A DNA stretch of 30,595 bases from a virus. A program made the position numbers and the translations under genes. The stretch covers positions 1 to 30,595 of the IMG/VR virus record IMGVR_UViG_3300034062_001573; one strand, given 5' to 3'. Under the pieces are notes generated by a model that searched no databases, was not told the origin of the DNA, and saw only the letters and a program-made list of their open reading frames with translations. The number at the start of each line of letters is the position of its first letter. Within the stretch, counting starts at the first letter, position 1. This document shows positions 1 to 29,867 of the stretch, one piece after another.

Positions 1-92
1 GATTCTAGAGTGTTATACTGCTATACAACACCGATATCTGCACGTGGTTCTCTTGCGTCGACCGGCAGCGACTGAAAACAGGGTGTCTAAAG

Positions 93-275
93 TGCCTATG
101 TTGCCTACCGCCTATCGGCTCCCGATCCGCACCATGTTGCGACCAGGCCACACGCCATGTGGCGCATTGCCTACATTGCCTACCGCATGGCGATTGCCTA
201 CATGACCTACCATGCTAGGCATGACCTACAATGCCTACCAATACCGCATGACCTACATTACCTACCGCATGGGGG
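93..275. repeat. degenerate 27-bp tandem repeat array (CCTAC boxes)
   Basis: Four adjacent units start near 168, 195, 222 and 249, with a fifth diverged unit at 93-119 separated by about 48 bases. Each unit carries two CCTAC boxes exactly 9 bp apart; in the main array the boxes start at 170/179, 197/206, 225/234 and 252/261, so pairs recur every 27-28 bp. Several units continue with CCGCATG. The boxes fall on a 9-bp grid, slightly short of one helical turn. Unit 2 also contains the dyad CATGC-TAG-GCATG at 211-223. No spacers of constant length separate the units, so this is not a CRISPR array. It could be an iteron-type protein-binding array or simply a decayed minisatellite. Confidence 0.75.
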
Positions 276-285
276 CGCGTAGCTA

Positions 286-333
286 GTAGGCTACGCCTAC
301 CTTGCCTGTCGCGTGATCGCCACACGCTGTGGC
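286..333. promoter_or_regulatory. two perfect 6-bp inverted repeats
   Basis: GTAGGC-TAC-GCCTAC lies at 286-300 and GCCACA-CGC-TGTGGC at 319-333. Both have 6-bp arms and a 3-base centre, and the first reuses the GCCTAC word of the neighbouring repeat array. A related dyad, CGCCA-TG-TGGCG, lies at 153-164. They could be operator half-sites or small RNA hairpins in a leader transcript. No binding protein is identifiable. Confidence 0.4.
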
Positions 334-381
334 TTGTCGGCTACTGGCGCGAGGCCGGGGGGGTAGGGCCGAGCAACGGGC

Positions 382-424
382 CGTAACAGTTTCGGTGCCC
401 CCACGCAAAATTTTTTTTGTTACG
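382..424. other. A4T8 tract between 6-bp inverted repeats
   Basis: A run of four A and eight T at 407-418 sits in otherwise GC-rich sequence, with CGTAAC at 382-387 and its exact reverse complement GTTACG at 419-424. A-tracts of this kind bend DNA. There is no GC-rich hairpin directly before the T run, so it does not read as a standard intrinsic terminator. A role in packaging or transcription start is only a guess. Confidence 0.35.
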
Positions 425-490: not shown

Positions 491-976
491 ATGTTCAAGT
501 CGTTGCCGTTTGAGGCTCGCCAGCTCGTTGCCACTGAGGCGCGCTTGCAGCGCATCTATGATGCGGCGGCGTTAGGGTTGAAGGGTGATGCCCTGGCGTT
601 GGCTGCGGGGATGCTGCCGGTTGAGTACCGGCGGCTTTGTCAGTTGGATGCGATGGCGGCGATGGCGGAGGCCAAGGGGCGAGCGGACTCTGAGGTGGAG
701 ATTGCGACGTACTTGAGGGAGGCTGCGAGGAATGGGGATGCCAAGGCGGCGCTTGCAATCTTGCAGCACACTCACGGGTGGGTGGCCAAGCAGCAGGTGC
801 AGGTTGACGTTACGCAGCAGATCAGCATATCCGCGGCGTTGCGAGAGGCGGAGTCTCGCGTCATTGATGGCCGGTTGGATGGCCGGTTGGCGTCACCGCT
901 TGCGGCTGCATTGAGTCGTGCGGAGGATGCGGTAAGGCTGCCGATGGAGGGTGCAAGTGCAGACGCCCATCTATAG
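491..976 (+). CDS. terS: small terminase subunit
   Basis: This 161-residue protein probably recognises the phage packaging site and hands DNA to the large terminase on the procapsid portal. The call rests on position (it overlaps the large terminase gene by 20 bases), size and layout. An N-terminal helical part (about 10-55) contains a plausible helix-turn-helix (AALGLKGDALALAAGML). A central helical region (about 60-95) could form the oligomer core, and the C-terminal tail is variable. I chose the ATG at 491 because the conserved-looking sequence begins there and it follows a G-rich stretch; the frame is open back to 329, but that extension does not look like protein. The coding sequence holds an exact 12-bp tandem duplication at 866-889 that encodes DGRLDGRL. 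P22-like phages carry pac inside this gene, so the duplication is a candidate packaging element. The family call is likely but not certain. Confidence 0.8.
   Translation: MFKSLPFEARQLVATEARLQRIYDAAALGLKGDALALAAGMLPVEYRRLCQLDAMAAMAEAKGRADSEVEIATYLREAARNGDAKAALAILQHTHGWVAKQQVQVDVTQQISISAALREAESRVIDGRLDGRLASPLAAALSRAEDAVRLPMEGASADAHL
866..889 (+). repeat. 12-bp tandem duplication inside terS
   Basis: GATGGCCGGTTG occurs twice head to tail (866-877 and 878-889), keeping the reading frame and giving a DGRL-DGRL peptide. Because P22-type pac sites lie within the small terminase gene, a short direct repeat here is a candidate recognition element. It may equally be a recent slippage event. Confidence 0.6.
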
Positions 977-2483
977 CGCCGAGGAAGAAGAAACCCTGAT
1001 GGCGCGGTTGTGGTCGCCTGCGCTTAAGGACGACCCGGAAGCGTTTGTGCTGTTTGTGTTCCCGTGGGGGCAGAAGGGCACCCCGTTGGAACACTTCAAA
1101 GGGCCGCGGCGGTGGCAACGCAAGGTGCTGCGCGACATCACGGCGCACATCACCCGCAACAAGGAGCTGACCAACTTTGAAGTGTTGCGCATGGCGACGG
1201 CTTCGGGGCGTGGTATCGGCAAGTCGGCGTTGGTGTCCTGGCTCATTTTGTGGATGCTGACGACGCGGATAGGCTCCACAACGATTGTGTCGGCCAACAG
1301 CGAAAGCCAGTTGCGCTCCATCACCTGGGCGGAAGTCACAAAATGGCTTGCGCTGATGATGAACAGCCATTGGTTTGAGGTCAGCGCGACCCGTGTGATG
1401 CCGGCGAAGTGGCTGGCGGAGCTGGTTGAGCGCGATCTCAAGAAAGGTACGCGCTACTGGTCGGTTGAAGGCCGCCTGTGGAGCGAGGAAAACCCCGATG
1501 CCTACGCCGGCGTTCACAATTTCGACGGCGTTTTGGTCATTTTCGACGAGGCGAGCGGTATTCCCGACCCGATTTGGTCGGTGACGGCCGGATTTTTCAC
1601 GGAAAACACGCCAAATCGCTTCTGGATGGCGTTTTCCAACCCACGACGGCCGGAGGGCTACTTCTATGAGTGCTTCAACGCGAAAAGGGACTTCTGGACA
1701 ACGCAAAACATCGACGCGCGCACCGTCGAGGACACCGACAAAGCGGTCTACGAGCAAATCATCGCGGAATACGGCGTTGACAGCCCCCAAGCCCGAGTTG
1801 AAGTCTACGGAGAGTTCCCCTCTGACGGAGACGACCAATTTATCAGCCCCCGGTTGGTGGATGAAGCTATGGCGCGGCCTCGTTTCAAGGACGAAAACGC
1901 TCCGCGAGTGATTGGCGTAGATCCCGCGCGCGGCGGGGCGGATGCAACGGTCATCGCCGTGCGCCAGGGGCGCGATTTGATTGCTCTGCACCGCTATCGG
2001 GGCGAGGATACGATGGCGACCGTGGGGCGGGTGATTGACGCCATTGAGCAGTACCGCCCGGCGCTGACGGTGATTGACGAAGGTGGCTTGGGCTACGGCA
2101 TCCTTGACAGGCTCAAGGAGCAGCGTTACAAGGTACGAGGCGTGAACTTCGGTTGGAAATCGCGTAATCCGGCTGCTTGGCAGAACAAGCGTTCCGAAAT
2201 GTGGGCGGACATGCGAGAATGGCTGAAAGGTGCAAGTGTGCCCGATGATCGGGTGCTGAAAGCCGATTTTGTCGGCCCGCACCAGAAGTTCAACTCCGCT
2301 GGTGCAATCCTTTTGGAGAGCAAGAAAGACATGAAAGCCCGTGGTTTGGCCTCGCCTGATGCGGCTGACGCCATCGCTGTGACGTTTGCATACCCTGTTG
2401 CCAGCCGCACGGAGCGCCCGTCTGAACGGCGCGTCACGCTGCGTGAGGGCGGCGGTATGTCCGGCAGTTGGATGGGCGCCTGA
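957..2483 (+). CDS. terL: large terminase subunit (ATPase and nuclease)
   Basis: This is the motor that pumps DNA into the procapsid and cuts it from the concatemer. Counting from the GTG at 957 (508 residues), the Walker A sequence SGRGIGKS is at about 83-90 and Walker B VIFDEAS at about 194-200, with catalytic Glu after Asp. The C-terminal RNase H-like nuclease shows GVDPARGGAD (about 320-329), VIDEGG (about 372-377) and SPDAADA (about 467-473), supplying the acidic metal ligands. Length is typical for TerL. Two GTG codons, at 951 and 957, are in frame. GGAGG at 946-950 abuts the first but is ideally spaced (6 bases) from the second, so 957 is preferred. The gene overlaps terS and is followed after two bases by the likely portal start, so the three are translated together. 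Confidence 0.95.
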   Translation: MQTPIYSAEEEETLMARLWSPALKDDPEAFVLFVFPWGQKGTPLEHFKGPRRWQRKVLRDITAHITRNKELTNFEVLRMATASGRGIGKSALVSWLILWMLTTRIGSTTIVSANSESQLRSITWAEVTKWLALMMNSHWFEVSATRVMPAKWLAELVERDLKKGTRYWSVEGRLWSEENPDAYAGVHNFDGVLVIFDEASGIPDPIWSVTAGFFTENTPNRFWMAFSNPRRPEGYFYECFNAKRDFWTTQNIDARTVEDTDKAVYEQIIAEYGVDSPQARVEVYGEFPSDGDDQFISPRLVDEAMARPRFKDENAPRVIGVDPARGGADATVIAVRQGRDLIALHRYRGEDTMATVGRVIDAIEQYRPALTVIDEGGLGYGILDRLKEQRYKVRGVNFGWKSRNPAAWQNKRSEMWADMREWLKGASVPDDRVLKADFVGPHQKFNSAGAILLESKKDMKARGLASPDAADAIAVTFAYPVASRTERPSERRVTLREGGGMSGSWMGA

Positions 2484-2485
2484 CC

Positions 2486-4642
2486 GTGGCTACGGATCCT
2501 GTAGGCATGAGGGCGGCGGCGCGGTCGAGCGACCCCGCGCCCAAGGGCAAGAAGCGCAACGCGCAGGATGTCTTGGCGACGGCGCGCACGCGCATGGTGT
2601 CGGCCATCGCTGCCTATGCGGACAGTCGCGAGGACGAGCTGGATGACCTGCGGTTCATGGCGGGTAGCCCGGACAACCAGTGGCAATGGCCGCAGGATGT
2701 CTTGGCGACCCGCGGTTCGGTGCAGGGGCAGACGGTCAACGCGCGTCCGTGTTTGACCATCAACAAGCTCCCGCAGCACGTCCGGCAGGTAACGAACGAA
2801 CAGCGGCAGAACCGCCCGGCCGGCAAGGTCATCCCGGTGGATGACAAGGCCGACATGGAGGTGGCCGAGATTTTCGACGGCATGGTGCGGCATATCGAGT
2901 ACATCTCGGATGCCGACGTGGCCTACGACACCGCCTGCGACAATCAGGTGACGTTTGGCGAAGGGTACGTCCGCATCCTGACGAAATACTGCGACGAGGA
3001 CACTTTCGACCAAGACGTGTTCATCGGGCGGGTGCGCAACTCGTTTAGCGTCTACATGGATCCCACCATCCAAGACCCTACGGGCATGGATGCGGAGTGG
3101 TGTTTCATCACCGAGGACATGACGCGCGACGAGTTTGAGCGTGCGTTCCCGGACGCCGAACCGATTTCGTCCATCATGCAGCGCGGGGTCGGTGACTCCG
3201 CGATGACGCAATGGATCAGCCGAGAGACGGTGCGCATCGCGGAATACTTCTACAAGGAATACACCCGCGCCACGCTCAACCTGTATCCGGGCAACCTGAC
3301 GGCGTTCGCCGGCTCGCAAGAGGCCGCGCAGGCCGAAATGATGGGTCTGCCGGTCATCCGCACGCGCGAGGTCGACCGCTGCCAGGTCAAGTGGATCAAG
3401 ACCAACGGCTACGAGATTCTTGAGGAACAGGACTGGCCGGGCGATTGGATTCCGGTCGTTCGCGCCATCGGCAACGAGTTTGAGGTTGACGGGCGTATGT
3501 ACGTCTCCGGCCTTGTGCGCAACGCCAAGGACGCGCAGCGGATGTACAACTACTGGGTGAGCCAAGAGGCGGAAATGCTCGCCTTGGCGCCCAAGGCGCC
3601 GTTCATCGGTTACGGTGGCCAGTTTGAAGGCTACGAGCAGCACTGGAAAACGGCCAACACCAACAACTGGCCGTACCTTGAGGTCAACCCGGATGTGACG
3701 GACGGGCAGGGCGGCGTGTTGCCACTTCCCGCGCGCGCGCAGCCGCCGATGGCTTCTAGCGGTCTGTTGCAGGCCAAGTTGGGCGCGGCGGACGACATCA
3801 AGAGCGCCACCGGGCAGTACGATTCAAGCCTTGGAGCGCAGTCCAATGAGCGTTCGGGCAAAGCAATTCTGGCGCGTGAGAAGCAGGGCGACACCGGCAC
3901 GTTCCACTACATCGACAACATCGGTAGAACCGTCCGAGCTGTCACGCGCCAGATCATCGACCTGATACCGAAAATCTACGACACGCAGCGTATCGCGCGC
4001 ATCGTGGGGCTTGATGGCGAGGTCAAGACCGTCCGCATCGACCCGACGCAGCCGGAGCCGGTTCGCAAGATCACGGACGAACAGGGCGTGGTGTTGGAGA
4101 AAATCTACAACCCGTCTGTCGGCAAGTACGATGTCCGCGTGACCACCGGCCCGTCGTACATGACGAAGCGCCAGGAAGCGATGGACGCCATGAGCCAGAT
4201 TCTCACGGCCAACCCGGACTTGTGGCCGGTGGCGGGCGACCTGTTCGTGAAGAACATGGACTGGCCGGGCGCGCAGGAGATCGCCAAGCGCCTTGGCAAG
4301 ATGATCGACCCGAAGCTGCTGACCGACGAGGAAAACCCGGCGTTGCAGGCTGCCAACATGCAGATGCAGGCGATGGCGCAAGAGATGGACATGATGCACG
4401 CGATGCTCCAGAAGGTGCAGGAGTCTTTGGAAGCGCGCACGCTTGACATCAAGGCGTATGAAGCCGAAACCAAGCGGATTGCCGCGGTGCAGGAGCAGAT
4501 GACGCCTGAGCAGATCCAAGACATCGTGCTTGGCACGCTGAATGGCATGATGACTTCGGGCGACTTGGCGCCGGAAATGCCGCAGATGCCGGAAGCCCCG
4601 CCTGACATGGGCATGGGGATGCCGCCGGAGGGCATGGCATGA
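2486..4642 (+). CDS. portal protein, P22 gp1 type
   Basis: The portal forms the dodecameric ring at one capsid vertex through which DNA enters and leaves and to which the tail machine attaches. At about 718 residues it matches the length of P22 gp1 (725). The N-terminal region closely resembles that family: RPCLTINKLPQHVRQVTNEQRQNRP, split here as RPCLTINKLPQ and VTNEQRQNRPAGK, followed by a VDDKADMEVAEIFDGMVRHI-like segment. The C-terminal third is helical and Gln/Met-rich, fitting the P22 barrel, and ends in a Met/Pro/Gly tail. The start is uncertain: TTG at 2468 (within terL), GTG at 2486 (two bases after the terL stop, favoured for translational coupling) or ATG at 2507. The stop overlaps the next start as ATGA. 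Confidence 0.93.
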   Translation: MATDPVGMRAAARSSDPAPKGKKRNAQDVLATARTRMVSAIAAYADSREDELDDLRFMAGSPDNQWQWPQDVLATRGSVQGQTVNARPCLTINKLPQHVRQVTNEQRQNRPAGKVIPVDDKADMEVAEIFDGMVRHIEYISDADVAYDTACDNQVTFGEGYVRILTKYCDEDTFDQDVFIGRVRNSFSVYMDPTIQDPTGMDAEWCFITEDMTRDEFERAFPDAEPISSIMQRGVGDSAMTQWISRETVRIAEYFYKEYTRATLNLYPGNLTAFAGSQEAAQAEMMGLPVIRTREVDRCQVKWIKTNGYEILEEQDWPGDWIPVVRAIGNEFEVDGRMYVSGLVRNAKDAQRMYNYWVSQEAEMLALAPKAPFIGYGGQFEGYEQHWKTANTNNWPYLEVNPDVTDGQGGVLPLPARAQPPMASSGLLQAKLGAADDIKSATGQYDSSLGAQSNERSGKAILAREKQGDTGTFHYIDNIGRTVRAVTRQIIDLIPKIYDTQRIARIVGLDGEVKTVRIDPTQPEPVRKITDEQGVVLEKIYNPSVGKYDVRVTTGPSYMTKRQEAMDAMSQILTANPDLWPVAGDLFVKNMDWPGAQEIAKRLGKMIDPKLLTDEENPALQAANMQMQAMAQEMDMMHAMLQKVQESLEARTLDIKAYEAETKRIAAVQEQMTPEQIQDIVLGTLNGMMTSGDLAPEMPQMPEAPPDMGMGMPPEGMA

Positions 4643-25780: not shown

Positions 25781-25940
25781 TCTCGTCGCGCTCGCGCGCG
25801 GCGCGCATCGACGTGTACCGCTGGTGCAGGCGCTCAAGGAACACCTTGCGGCGCTGACCGTTGCGTTCGGCCACCAGCAGCTCAAGCACCTGTTCCTCGC
25901 CCATGCCCTTCATGGCAGCGTTCAGTTGCGTCCAGTTCAT
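25749..25940 (-). CDS. small helical protein downstream of the helicase
   Basis: A 63-residue, strongly helical, charged protein (MNWTQLNAAMKGMGEEQVLE, LLVAERNGQRRKVFLERLHQ). It starts by ATGA overlap with the helicase stop and ends by overlapping the Rz 3' end on the other strand. Short proteins of similar M-N-W-x-x-L-x-E start occur behind replication genes in other phages. It may be a helicase partner, but nothing in the sequence proves that. Confidence 0.7.
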   Translation of the reverse strand: MNWTQLNAAMKGMGEEQVLELLVAERNGQRRKVFLERLHQRYTSMRAARERDEIMAEARQARG

Positions 25941-27277
25941 TCGGTCAACTCCTTCATGGCTATGTCGGATACCGCACGCTTGTCGTGCAGCGCCGACCAG
26001 ATACGCTCGTCAATCGTCTGATTGGCAAGCAAGACATAGACCCACACATCCTGCCGCTGACCGCTGCGGTGCAGTCGACCAACGGTCTGCTCGTATTCCT
26101 CTAGCGACCACGGCAGCGACAGAAACACCATATGGCTCCCGCCGTGCTGCAAGTTGAGGCCGTGGCCGGCCGAGCGGGGGTGAATCAGCAGCAGCGGCAC
26201 TTCGCCGCGGTTCCACCGATCCACTACGCCTGGCTGGTCTATTGTGGCGGCATGGGGGTAGCGGCGCAACAACTCTGCTTGTTCCTCGACGTAGTTGTAC
26301 ACCACCACCGTGTTCACCCGCTGATTGCCGTCAAGAACTTCCTCTAGCAAGTCAAACTTGTGGCTAGAAAACCACACCGGGGTCTGCGTGACGATGAACT
26401 TGCCCGGCTTGGCGGGGTTGGGTGTCTTACGGGTGTCGTACACCCACCCGCACGCCATCTGTTGAAGTTTCTGCGTGACGGCGCCGGCGTTGACGGCGAC
26501 CGCCTGCGCGTCAGGGAAGCGCACCACGAAGTCCTGCTTCATCTTCTGGTAGGGTTCGCGGTCGGTCAGGACGGTTCGCAGCGGGGTGACGTGCAGCGGC
26601 GGCAAGGTGTCGGCGTACTCGCCAGGCTCAAGCACGAAGGTTGCGTGCTTGATGCGCGCCATGACCTGCTCCAACGATCCGCGCGCCGGCTCCCATTGGC
26701 CGTGGTCGCGGTTGATGCAATGGAAATACTGTTGCAGGAACGCGCCCTTGGAGCGACCAAGCAACGACTGGTCGATGATTTTGCATTGGCCGAACACGTC
26801 CTCAAGGCCGTTGGACGTGAAGCTGCCGGTCAGCCCCCACCGGATGGGGACATCTTCCAGGCGCTTGAGGATGGCCTTGAACCGCACGCCGGAGGGGTTC
26901 TTGAGGCGCGTCAGCTCGTCAAACACCACGCCATCAAAGTCAAACCGTTGCCCGGCGAGCCACGCCAGATTCTCGTAGTTGATGACGACCACGCGGGCAT
27001 CGGATGCAAGCGCCGCAGCCCGCGCCTTGGACGCGCCGAGCGCCACCGCCACCTTGACATCAGGCGTCCACTTGGCAGCCTCAGACGGCCACACGTAGCG
27101 GCAGACGCGCAGGGGCGCGACAACGAGCCACCGCTTGACCACCCCATCGCGCAGGGCATCCCGCATGGCCGTGAGCGCCGTAGCGGTCTTGCCGGCGCCA
27201 ACCCACGCCAACATCATCGCCCGGTCATGCTCGTAGAGGAAGTCAGCCGCCGTTTCTTGATAGGGTCTTAATTGCAT
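25937..27277 (-). CDS. SNF2-type DEAD-box helicase
   Basis: A 446-residue superfamily-2 ATPase. Motifs in order: Q-like LRPYQ (3-7), Walker A GAGKTA (27-32), VVFDELTRLKN (117-127; Asp-Glu as Walker B), LTGSF (149-153), then in the second RecA fold SAGHGLNLQ (369-377) and QTVGRLHRSGQ (397-407, arginine finger). The H-R-S-G-Q and GLNLQ signatures place it in the SNF2/Rad54-like branch. Phage versions are thought to remodel or unwind DNA in replication, recombination or repair. The start ATG 27277 is chosen for GGGAG five bases upstream and because the conserved part begins there. It overlaps the XF1762-family gene by ten bases and the small gene downstream by four. Confidence 0.93.
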   Translation of the reverse strand: MQLRPYQETAADFLYEHDRAMMLAWVGAGKTATALTAMRDALRDGVVKRWLVVAPLRVCRYVWPSEAAKWTPDVKVAVALGASKARAAALASDARVVVINYENLAWLAGQRFDFDGVVFDELTRLKNPSGVRFKAILKRLEDVPIRWGLTGSFTSNGLEDVFGQCKIIDQSLLGRSKGAFLQQYFHCINRDHGQWEPARGSLEQVMARIKHATFVLEPGEYADTLPPLHVTPLRTVLTDREPYQKMKQDFVVRFPDAQAVAVNAGAVTQKLQQMACGWVYDTRKTPNPAKPGKFIVTQTPVWFSSHKFDLLEEVLDGNQRVNTVVVYNYVEEQAELLRRYPHAATIDQPGVVDRWNRGEVPLLLIHPRSAGHGLNLQHGGSHMVFLSLPWSLEEYEQTVGRLHRSGQRQDVWVYVLLANQTIDERIWSALHDKRAVSDIAMKELTE

Positions 27278-27714
27278 ACGCGCTCCCAACGAACGCGCGC
27301 TACGCCACCGCTGCCAATGTCCGCGCGAGGACGTCCAGGCGAATCCCATCCTTTGCGCGGGGGTAAATGCGCAATCGGAGTCCATCCCGCACCACGCAAA
27401 CTAGCTCCGCTTTCATCGTGCTGCGTATACGTCACAACTTTCAGATACCCAAGTGCTTTTGCCGCACGAACAATAGCGCCGTACAGCATTGAATTAGCGT
27501 TTCGAGTGCCATCGGTGCAAGTTCGCGTCACTTCTAAAGTCAACCCATCATCAAGCATCCGTGCAATAGGGCGTCCTGCGGTAGCAACGCCCACGCACAC
27601 GTCGCCGTCAAATAGGCCAATACTAAACTTATGCCCCGAAGGTGGTTTGTTGTGACGGTGATTTTGCCGAACAAACTCTTGCGCAAATTTAAGCGAAACA
27701 GGGCGGATAATCAT
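27268..27714 (-). CDS. XF1762-family protein (GNAT-like)
   Basis: A 148-residue protein with segments I recall from the XF1762 family: FVRQNHRHNKPPSGHKFSIG, GRPIARMLDDGLTLEVTR, DGTRNANSMLYGAIVRAAKA and GYLKVVTYTQHDESGASLRG, then AGWTPIAHLPPRKGWD. The fold is probably acetyltransferase-like, with a conserved Asn-Arg-His-rich start, but substrate and reaction are not known. The start overlaps the nuclease stop (ATGA) and the end overlaps the helicase start, so all three are translated from one message. Proteins of this family are common in phages and prophages beside replication genes. Confidence 0.85.
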   Translation of the reverse strand: MIIRPVSLKFAQEFVRQNHRHNKPPSGHKFSIGLFDGDVCVGVATAGRPIARMLDDGLTLEVTRTCTDGTRNANSMLYGAIVRAAKALGYLKVVTYTQHDESGASLRGAGWTPIAHLPPRKGWDSPGRPRADIGSGGVARVRWERVCN

Positions 27715-28079: not shown

Positions 28080-29201
28080 ATGGCACACAGCACTATCGTC
28101 GGCGGGTCTACCGCCAAGCGCGTCATGGCCTGCCCTGGCAGCGTCAAGCTCGTTCAGCAAGTCCCGCCGAAGCCCGCATCCAAGGATGCCCTGCGCGGCA
28201 CCTTGCTTCACGATGTCATCGCCAAGATCCTTGAGCATGACGAGCCGCCCGCGAACTTCTTGGGCGCGACCTACGAGGGCGAGGAACTTACCCCTGAGTT
28301 GATGGAAGCCAAGATCCTGCCGGCGCTTGCGATGCTCGACGCCGTTGACCCCGACAAGCAGATGGAATTCGCCATCGAAGCCGTGGTCGGCTTTGGCGAC
28401 TTCCTCCCCGGCGTGTTCGGATCGGCTGACGTGCTTGGCCGCATCGGCAAGCGCGCCATCGTCTGGGATTGGAAGTTTGGTGACGGCGTGCCGGTGTCGC
28501 CCGTCGAGAACGAACAGCTCATGTTCTACGCCGCTGCCGCGATGCGCACGCCCGCAACCAAGTGGGTGTTTGACGGCGCGGAGGAAATCGAACTCGTCAT
28601 CGCGCAGCCGCCCTCTGACCCCAAGCGATGGGTCACAACGCCCGACCGCATCCGGCGCTTTGAGGCTGACCTGGCGCTTGCCGTCCACACGGCGTTGCGC
28701 CCCGATGCGGCGCTTGCGGTGGGCGATCATTGCAGGTGGTGCGCCGCCAAGCCCATCTGCCCGCAAATGACGGGCGCGGTTGACCGGGCGTTGCAAAAGA
28801 CCATCAAGGAACTGGACGCCACGCAGCTTGGCGTCATGCTGCAACGCGCGGACATCCTTGAAGGCTGGATCAGCGACTTGCGCGCGCTTGCGCTCCAAGT
28901 GCTAGAGTCCGGCAATCAGGTGCCAGGCTTCAAGCTCGTACAGAAGCGCGGCACCCGCAAATGGGTTGACGAGAAGGCGGCGGAAATCGCCCTCGTCGGC
29001 CTCGGAATCGACCCGCTTGTGACGGAGCTTGTCTCTCCGGCGCAGGCGGAGAAAAAGCTGAAAGCCGCCAAGAAGGTTTTGCCGGAAGGCTTGACCGTCA
29101 TGGCGTCGTCAGGCACCACCCTCGCGTCGGAAAGCGATTCCCGACCGGCGGTGTTGCAAATCGGGCAGCAGTTGACTGCGGCTCTTTCTAAACTTGTGTA
29201 A
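28080..29201 (+). CDS. DUF2800 protein, Cas4/RecB-like nuclease with Fe-S cysteines
   Basis: A 373-residue protein of the DUF2800 type. The RecB-like nuclease residues are visible: His44 (TLLHD), Asp117 (GSADV), and Asp130-Trp-Lys132 (WDWKFG). Four cysteines, Cys18 near the N-terminus and Cys218, Cys221 and Cys227 (CRWCAAKPIC), match the split iron-sulphur cluster of Cas4 and AddB nucleases. It is expected to trim DNA ends in recombination-dependent replication. The C-terminal 100 residues (RKWVDEKAAEIALVGLGID and onward) are an extra domain normal for this family. CGGAG (28069-28073) precedes ATG 28080, itself under the rightward promoter. Confidence 0.9.
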   Translation: MAHSTIVGGSTAKRVMACPGSVKLVQQVPPKPASKDALRGTLLHDVIAKILEHDEPPANFLGATYEGEELTPELMEAKILPALAMLDAVDPDKQMEFAIEAVVGFGDFLPGVFGSADVLGRIGKRAIVWDWKFGDGVPVSPVENEQLMFYAAAAMRTPATKWVFDGAEEIELVIAQPPSDPKRWVTTPDRIRRFEADLALAVHTALRPDAALAVGDHCRWCAAKPICPQMTGAVDRALQKTIKELDATQLGVMLQRADILEGWISDLRALALQVLESGNQVPGFKLVQKRGTRKWVDEKAAEIALVGLGIDPLVTELVSPAQAEKKLKAAKKVLPEGLTVMASSGTTLASESDSRPAVLQIGQQLTAALSKLV

Positions 29202-29216
29202 GGAGTATTAATAGTC

Positions 29217-29867
29217 ATGTCGAATGAAATCTCGTTGTTCCAGAAGGCCGGTTTACCGGCGCCCACCACCCTCGCCACCGCCCTCAAGTCGCTTGACACG
29301 GCGGTGGGCACGGTCGGTGTGACCATCCTCAAGATGGACAAGACCGGCCATTGGGTGTTCGGTGCCGATCAAACCGAAGTGGAGGATGACTCCACTTGGG
29401 CGGTCAACCCGTTCAGCTTTATCCACGGCTTCATCGCTTGGGGTGCGGGCGAGGTGTTGGGCGAGAAGATGGGGCCGGTTACGCAGCCGCTCCCGGAGAT
29501 TGGCCCGGCGCCCGAGGCCGCCAAGAAGGGGTGGGAGACGCAGGTGGGCTTCTCGCTCAAGTGCGTCAACGGTGAGGATGCGGGTTTGGAAGCCCGCTAC
29601 ACCGTGACATCCGTGGGCGGCAAGCGTGCCGTGCAGGGCTTGGCGGCAGCGATTGCCGCACAGGTCGAAACCAACCCTGACCTGCCGGTGCCGGTCGTGC
29701 GACTCAAGAAGGAGCATTACCAGCACAAGATGTACGGGCGCATCTTCACGCCGATCTTTGAAATCGTCGGGTGGGTGAACCTTGACGGCAACGCCGCAAG
29801 CGGCGAAGCGGTTGAGGCTCCTGCGGCTGACGAGGCGGCGCCGGGTCGCCGTCGTCGTCGGGCGTGA
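29217..29867 (+). CDS. conserved hypothetical, candidate ssDNA-binding protein
   Basis: A 216-residue protein 15 bases after the DUF2800 gene, with AGGAG at 29201-29205. The core includes TILKMDKTGHWVFGADQTEV, WAVNPFSFIHGFIAWG and EVLGEKMGPVTQPLPEIG, which I recall from many phage genomes without a named function. A beta-rich middle (VGFSLKCVNGEDAG, EARYTVTSVGGKRAV) precedes an acidic linker and a basic end (PGRRRRRA). In other phages the gene after a DUF2800 nuclease often encodes a single-strand DNA-binding protein, so that role is possible by context only. It ends seven bases before a strong terminator. Confidence 0.8.
   Translation: MSNEISLFQKAGLPAPTTLATALKSLDTAVGTVGVTILKMDKTGHWVFGADQTEVEDDSTWAVNPFSFIHGFIAWGAGEVLGEKMGPVTQPLPEIGPAPEAAKKGWETQVGFSLKCVNGEDAGLEARYTVTSVGGKRAVQGLAAAIAAQVETNPDLPVPVVRLKKEHYQHKMYGRIFTPIFEIVGWVNLDGNAASGEAVEAPAADEAAPGRRRRRA

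Follow-up and report, generated by a model that had tools for sequence, protein, structure and literature searches.

The array of paired CCTAC boxes ahead of the terminase genes of this virus is probably the right arm of an iteron-type replication origin of the phage, recognised by an initiator that the phage itself encodes and that would most likely be a VapE-like protein; judging from sequence comparisons, we put the probability of this reading at just under 0.6. An iteron origin is favoured because the boxes are kept, the paired layout persists while the repeated word drifts, the boxes occupy one region per genome, inverted boxes lie past AT-rich DNA and the array co-occurs with a replication module. 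The window, by which we mean the whole stretch of DNA analysed, is the linear virus record IMGVR_UViG_3300034062_001573 of 30,595 bases. It derives from a P22-like freshwater podovirus in which a TerS-like gene, TerL and a portal gene (2468-4642) are followed by head and tail genes, while the far end carries an SNF2 helicase, a RecB-like exonuclease and a 216-aa replication-module protein. In relatives PolA and VapE come after the gene for the 216-aa protein, and in the window they would lie past its end. The array region sits between divergent operons, the early one leftward and the late one rightward. Among the relatives of the virus are MW202483 and the phage DSL-LC05 (OR003940), known from a lake metagenome and placed in a proposed family 'Luchaoviridae' (PMC10611076); in bacterial genome bins, the closest matches come chiefly from betaproteobacteria (Rhodoferax, Burkholderiales) and in one case from an actinobacterial bin, and such bins give a mere hint to the host. 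The TerS-like copy of the window has no PHROG match. Between TerS and TerL, contigs L006, L007 and L008 have extra ORFs (about 0.85-1.15 kb) that are absent from the window, marking a variable insertion spot.

The initial annotation had described eight CCTAC boxes in pairs 9 bp apart, with the pairs recurring every 27-28 bp, a fifth diverged unit upstream and the terminase genes downstream, and all of this is borne out by the exact positions. The boxes start at 170/179, 197/206, 225/234 and 252/261, 9 bp apart within every pair, with pair starts spaced 27, 28 and 27 bp, so that four CCTAC-N4-CCTAC pairs span 170-265. This pattern occurs four times in 30.6 kb, always within the array and on the + strand, as against a mean of 0.02 in dinucleotide shuffles, and TRF finds on the block a period of 27 with 4.1 copies and a 70% match. 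The location given for the array stands, but its proposed end at 275 falls slightly short, as a degenerate last pair reaches past it (Table). As RNA, the array strand gives a more stable fold than its shuffles do (z -2.81), an outcome to be expected of repeats and dyads; an RNA reading of the array was set aside, the inverted copies on the other side arguing for DNA, and Rfam has no match for the window region or for that of four relatives.

Table. Features of the window around the box array and in the accompanying replication module.
Feature	Positions	Strand	Basis
Right part of AT-rich segment between box sets, with dyad GTGTTATACTGCTATACAACAC at 10-31; candidate melting region	1-45	.	AT profile of L130/L008/L006, alignment
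Conserved motif GCGACTGAAAACAGG directly ahead of first direct pair	68-82	+	Kept, with small changes, in 10/10 close relatives
Diverged first box pair (CCTAT 95-99, CCTAC 104-108)	95-108	+	Sequence, close-relative alignment
Box pair CCTACATTGCCTAC	170-183	+	Exact pattern search
Box pair CCTACATGACCTAC	197-210	+	Exact pattern search
Box pair CCTACAATGCCTAC	225-238	+	Exact pattern search
Box pair CCTACATTACCTAC	252-265	+	Exact pattern search
Dyad GTAGGCTACGCCTAC (GTAGGC-TAC-GCCTAC, 286-300) overlapping degenerate last pair (CCTAC 296-300, CCTGT 305-309)	286-309	+	Sequence, close-relative alignment
G-tract...T-tract element (GGGGGGGTAGGGCC...CAAAATTTTTTTT)	353-419	+	Present in relatives with either array type
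TerS-like gene, 161 aa	491-976	+	Place before TerL; same-place DSL-LC05 gene is PHROG terminase small subunit
TerL	951-2483	+	PHROG terminase large subunit, 4e-45
SNF2-type helicase, module accompanying pair arrays	25937-27385	-	PHROG DNA helicase, 9e-125; distribution in relatives
RecB-like exonuclease, pair-type replication module	28080-29201	+	PHROG exonuclease, 9e-66; distribution in relatives
216-aa protein, pair-type replication module	29217-29867	+	PHROG 9528, annotated nucleotidyltransferase; distribution in relatives

Ten close relatives were aligned, eight of them counted as distinct, and in the main block (166-266), to which the count is limited, variation touches only 2 of 40 box columns but 35 of 61 columns of filler (Fisher p = 2e-8). 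The earlier suggestion that the box pair is the best kept part of each unit is thereby upheld, and the comparison of the same interval that had been proposed gives boxes that stay constant in close relatives and filler that drifts. Since the boxes are kept, the filler is varied and the paired layout persists while the word drifts, the sequence comparison supports well an array of protein-binding sites rather than a fresh duplication. The weakest of the alternatives, a tandem duplication peculiar to the clade and without function, finds some colour in the 27-bp period, which gives way to 36 and 40 bp elsewhere, yet we give it the least chance of all, given conserved boxes in diverged filler and the presence across most of the family of one-word pairs, in numbers above those of shuffles.

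Outside the close clade, TerL relatives have no CCTAC pairs, and distant relatives carry in the same interval head-to-tail pairs of other words with a period of 8-10, among them TTGCCCACA, TGACCCATT, TGACCCAAA and TTGTCCACA at period 9, ATGACTCACA and ATGACCCACA at period 10 and ATGACTAT at period 8, with further words such as TGCCGAGAC, GCCCAAA, ATACAT and others; the word is GACCCACT in DSL-LC05 (period 8) and CACTACCAA in MW202483 (about period 9). The initial annotation had held that relatives of the same gene order without the boxes would speak against binding. For the CCTAC word such relatives do exist, but binding is not refuted, as equivalent pairs of another word are present. The distance from pair to pair is 27, 36 or 40 bp or irregular among relatives, from which it follows that the pair is the conserved unit, and on the sequences compared the 27-bp period is local to the clade of the window and not the conserved feature. 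The clustered boxes, counted in long genomes, sit in this one intergenic region. Of 81 non-redundant upstream regions from outside a clade that carries dyads instead (see below), 47 pass a stricter test that asks for at least three separated pairs of the same word, and shuffles never gave more than two. An exact search for CCTAC pairs in all viral contigs returned 77 stretches, with this terminase only in the close clade, the others mostly resembling simple or coding repeats. Some unrelated contigs (L092, L094, L106, L110, L117, L131, L144, L150 and L156; e.g. IMGVR 3300014039_000045) hold many dispersed 9-bp arrays of the type CCTAC-AAAA-CCTAC-CCCA, unlike the coding repeats of other matches. 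Separately, near-perfect tandem repeats of about 3-14 copies stand upstream of TerS in the same intergenic region of a few contigs, with 7-bp TGACGGC/GGCTGAC units in L011, L057 and L073 and 8-bp GGCAGGCG/AGGCGGGC units in L075 and L065.

Longer contigs (L130, L006 and L008) reveal that the window, which starts within an AT-rich segment, holds the right half only of a two-sided structure. L130, whose TerS is identical to that of the window and whose sequence extends further left, presents in order an inverted cluster (GTAGGTAGTCGATAGGTGCGAGATAGGTAGC), an inverted 9-bp pair (TAGGTAAATTAGGTA), the most AT-rich segment and then the direct pairs. In all three contigs the most AT-rich 40 bp lie about 520-480 bp before TerS and are 62-78% AT (68% in L130, 78% in L008). 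Two of the features expected of an iteron origin are found, namely several short conserved direct repeats and an AT-rich segment adjoining them, of which the window holds the right part only; the arrangement of PICI type, with two iteron sets around an AT-rich region and the left set inverted, is seen in L130 and other relatives. LexA-like boxes (CTGT-N8-ACAG) occur in the AT-rich segment between the box sets of L012, L013, L017, L010, L064 (TACTGTATATATATACAGTA) and L068, and their sequence suggests an SOS link of an early promoter or of the origin.

The array also goes with a particular set of replication genes. The families present in array-bearing and missing from array-less genomes are a RecB-like exonuclease, a protein of ~213 aa, SNF2, a VRR-type nuclease and PolA, and the window has the RecB, 216-aa and SNF2 genes of this pair-type module. 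Four of the five array-less genomes encode a VapE-like helicase without the N-terminal ~330 residues, have by inspection different replication and recombination genes, and carry 18-20-bp dyads (TGTTGCATnnACGCAACA) at the same place; no VapE turned up in G005, the fifth. Relatives with the short VapE are without PolA and RecB, and a dedicated search for it gave 50 loci, the sole one of which with full VapE and PolA (L320) also has a pair array. With full and short VapE separated under a flank requirement that guards against loci cut through the gene, the combined set comprises 46 loci with pairs and full VapE, 18 with dyads and short VapE and none crossed among the clear calls; 18 full loci and one short locus fail both automatic tests, and one short locus passes both. 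All 46 classified pair arrays co-occur with PolA and/or the long VapE-like primase-helicase, while TerS and TerL are found in both groups. Along the TerL tree one change of module and three changes of array type are seen, with a single independent contrast, so the association, strong as a description, concerns what is essentially one swap and falls short of statistical proof; the Fisher values for array type against module ignore relatedness. A search for VapE with unrelated terminases, which would decouple the two, found one and the same terminase family at every VapE locus that extended as far as a recognisable terminase. L039-type relatives, with pairs inside the dyad clade, were considered as a second independent swap and rejected, their larger relatives being of dyad type or elsewhere in the tree; the L039 contig itself carries no replication genes. 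More broadly, and tentatively, since we would sooner bet against it than for it, these sequences may point to an aquatic podovirus family that trades entire replicons in cassette form: the genes acting in trans (PolA, RecB-like, SNF2 and long primase-helicase) would be exchanged in step with the array of 9-bp pairs or 18-20-bp dyads that acts in cis from kilobases away, the head and packaging genes being retained, and primase-helicase and box word would co-diverge to yield dozens of initiator/origin specificities.

A drifting word points to a reader encoded by the phage. In relatives the VapE-like protein, of 756-813 aa, contains a DUF5906 helicase core, and its predicted structure (mean pLDDT 75.5, pTM 0.38) best matches the C-terminal region of NrS-1 polymerase, poxvirus D5/E5, ASFV PrimPol and SaPI5 PriRep1. 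Among 36 genomes the distance between words correlates with that between proteins at rho 0.57 for PolA, 0.55 for VapE, 0.49 for TerL and 0.40 for TerS, with partial correlations given TerL of 0.42 for PolA, 0.40 for VapE and 0.21 for TerS. The word is thereby linked to the replication module as a whole rather than to VapE in particular. The N-terminal region of VapE was rejected as the part that reads the word, correlating less with word distance than do residues 301-345 and the helicase/C-terminal part. VapE is accordingly a candidate initiator by its co-occurrence and word correlation in relatives, its gene being outside the window and the VapE comparison covering clades other than the CCTAC one. 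DSL-LC05 combines an array with polymerase and primase genes of unrelated kinds; VapE thus cannot read the array of that phage, nor can it be the sole reader of such arrays. Two further proteins deserve mention: MW202483, which has a pair array, encodes a 98-aa protein with little beyond DnaA domain IV (L162:31423-31719; PF08299, E 1e-17), and an early-operon gene of G002 (L165:14122-14802, - strand) contains the central domain of the DNA polymerase III beta sliding clamp (PF02767, E 7e-8), with proteins that by inspection look similar among the early genes of G003, G001, G004, G016, L006 and L008.

The unit of the putative origin would be a head-to-tail pair of 9-bp boxes (ATTGCCTAC ATTGCCTAC). 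A phage initiator, most likely the VapE-like primase and SF3 helicase, may bind the direct pairs together with the inverted boxes across from them and open the AT-rich segment in between, and the opened segment could then allow loading of the helicase-primase and the phage replisome (PolA, RecB-like and SNF2 proteins). We infer all three of VapE as the reader, melting of the segment and the start of replication at the array. The GC-skew change that had been proposed as a check on an origin did not appear: in none of eight genomes did the skew reach an extremum at the array. The initial annotation had left a choice between iteron, late activator and packaging site; the first is now favoured, the last disfavoured, and a late activator is left with neither a candidate protein nor a promoter match.

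The main competitor, transcriptional control, we regard as doubtful. On this reading a regulator of the phage, toggling between the early operon on the left and the late operon on the right, would use the pairs as operators or activator sites, the direct pairs governing the late side and the inverted boxes the early side. The position between divergent operons, the LexA-like box in the AT-rich segment of several relatives and the head-to-tail sites, which fit many regulators, would all suit this. However, early operons of array-bearing genomes, surveyed partly by inspection, revealed no common DNA-binding regulator, positions 1-1000 contain no sigma-70-like promoter (phage promoters may differ), and array type tracks the replication module. 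One set of sites could serve both the origin and early/late operon control.

That the boxes form a packaging site, bound as pac or cosB by TerS with TerL cutting nearby, is improbable. The array does stand just before TerS, and the pac of SPP1 likewise has direct-repeat sets around the TerS start, just upstream of and into the gene (PMC4737164), although the DNA-binding domain of SF6 TerS shows no specific binding of SPP1-type pac boxes (PMC4737164). Unlike the SPP1/SF6 arrangement, the array here is two-sided around AT-rich DNA, with inverted boxes several hundred bp off, and it is absent from relatives with the same TerS family. Array-less genomes contain a TerS that shares 76-77% identity with the TerS of a genome bearing the array, so that the array does not go with TerS as a pac or cosB site should; it is because such relatives, which do not have the replication module, also lack the array that packaging is disfavoured. 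TerS is moreover the poorest correlate of the box word. A better candidate for a packaging or termination element, to judge from its sequence, is the G-tract/T-tract element between array and TerS, which is not part of the array because it is found with either array type (strict pattern in 30/55 and 16/23 of the two). In the window it contains no rule-based terminator and folds no better than shuffles. Between the T-tract and the first late ORF or TerS, some relatives have a strongly conserved leader of about 200 nt (L010:495-708, L012:4325-4537, L013, L017, L021, L040, L015, L035, L037, L049, L028 and L009) with compensatory base changes (of the 38 pairs in the RNAalifold prediction, 17 have changes on both sides in one or more sequences) and no Rfam match in L012, L035, L009 and L076. 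The leader has the look of a structured RNA, so far undescribed, that precedes the terminase genes; it occurs with both array types and is apparently absent from the clade of the window.

Degenerate DnaA boxes used by the host initiator are very improbable indeed: the boxes are 9 bp, the words of L070-L072 resemble DnaA boxes (TTGTCCACA in L070 is near the consensus) and MW202483 encodes a protein like DnaA domain IV, but the CCTAC boxes themselves do not match the consensus, only the L070-L072 words come near it and in most relatives the word drifts far past it. Host proteins would not favour such drift among related phages, and a DnaA-C domain is absent in 17 of the 18 genomes searched; on drift and missing domain together, DnaA is rejected as the reader.

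An origin read by a VapE-like initiator would be of wider interest, since most environmental phages cannot be cultured and their origins are for that reason unknown, and here a whole family displays its probable start site together with its probable starter protein. The natural series of box words would allow origin specificity to be studied by genome comparison and, if the reading is true, the two-sided iteron layout extends from PICIs to complete phages, which bears on the source of satellite replicons. Iteron origins with a primase-helicase initiator are already known; what is new is the paired 8-10-bp layout, its family-wide word drift, its presence in complete phages and its being swapped against dyads. 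No description of a paired layout with word drift was found in the literature searched, which left out most subscription journals. Lambda-type and plasmid iteron origins share repeated initiator boxes adjoining AT-rich DNA, but use other initiator families, while the layout here is two-sided with inverted sets and a word that drifts between close relatives. The alpha protein of satellite phage P4 uses a winged helix to bind the repeats of its origin before unwinding and priming (PMC4234260); it too combines primase and helicase parts in one protein acting on origin repeats, although its primase is of the Toprim type and the array layout differs. NrS-1 polymerase, compared by protein structure, is the top match of the C-terminal half of VapE (6k9c, E 1.6e-13), yet identity is low (14%). 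A close parallel is with the origins of PICIs and SaPIs (EcCICFT073, SaPIbov1; PriRep1 of SaPI5), where two sets of short iterons flank an AT-rich region, a layout reported as common to PICIs and to no other known bacterial replicon (PMC6092414), and where the initiator likewise joins primase and helicase; the VapE model matches primase-helicase structures 7pds and 7ola of SaPI5, whereas sequence homology between Pri-Rep and VapE is remote. In contrast to those elements, the array belongs to complete podovirus genomes with their own PolA, its boxes are head-to-tail pairs of period 8-10, and it lies about 3 kb past VapE, beyond early genes (in G002), rather than directly 3' of the rep gene, for which reason we class it not as a PICI origin but only as working like one.
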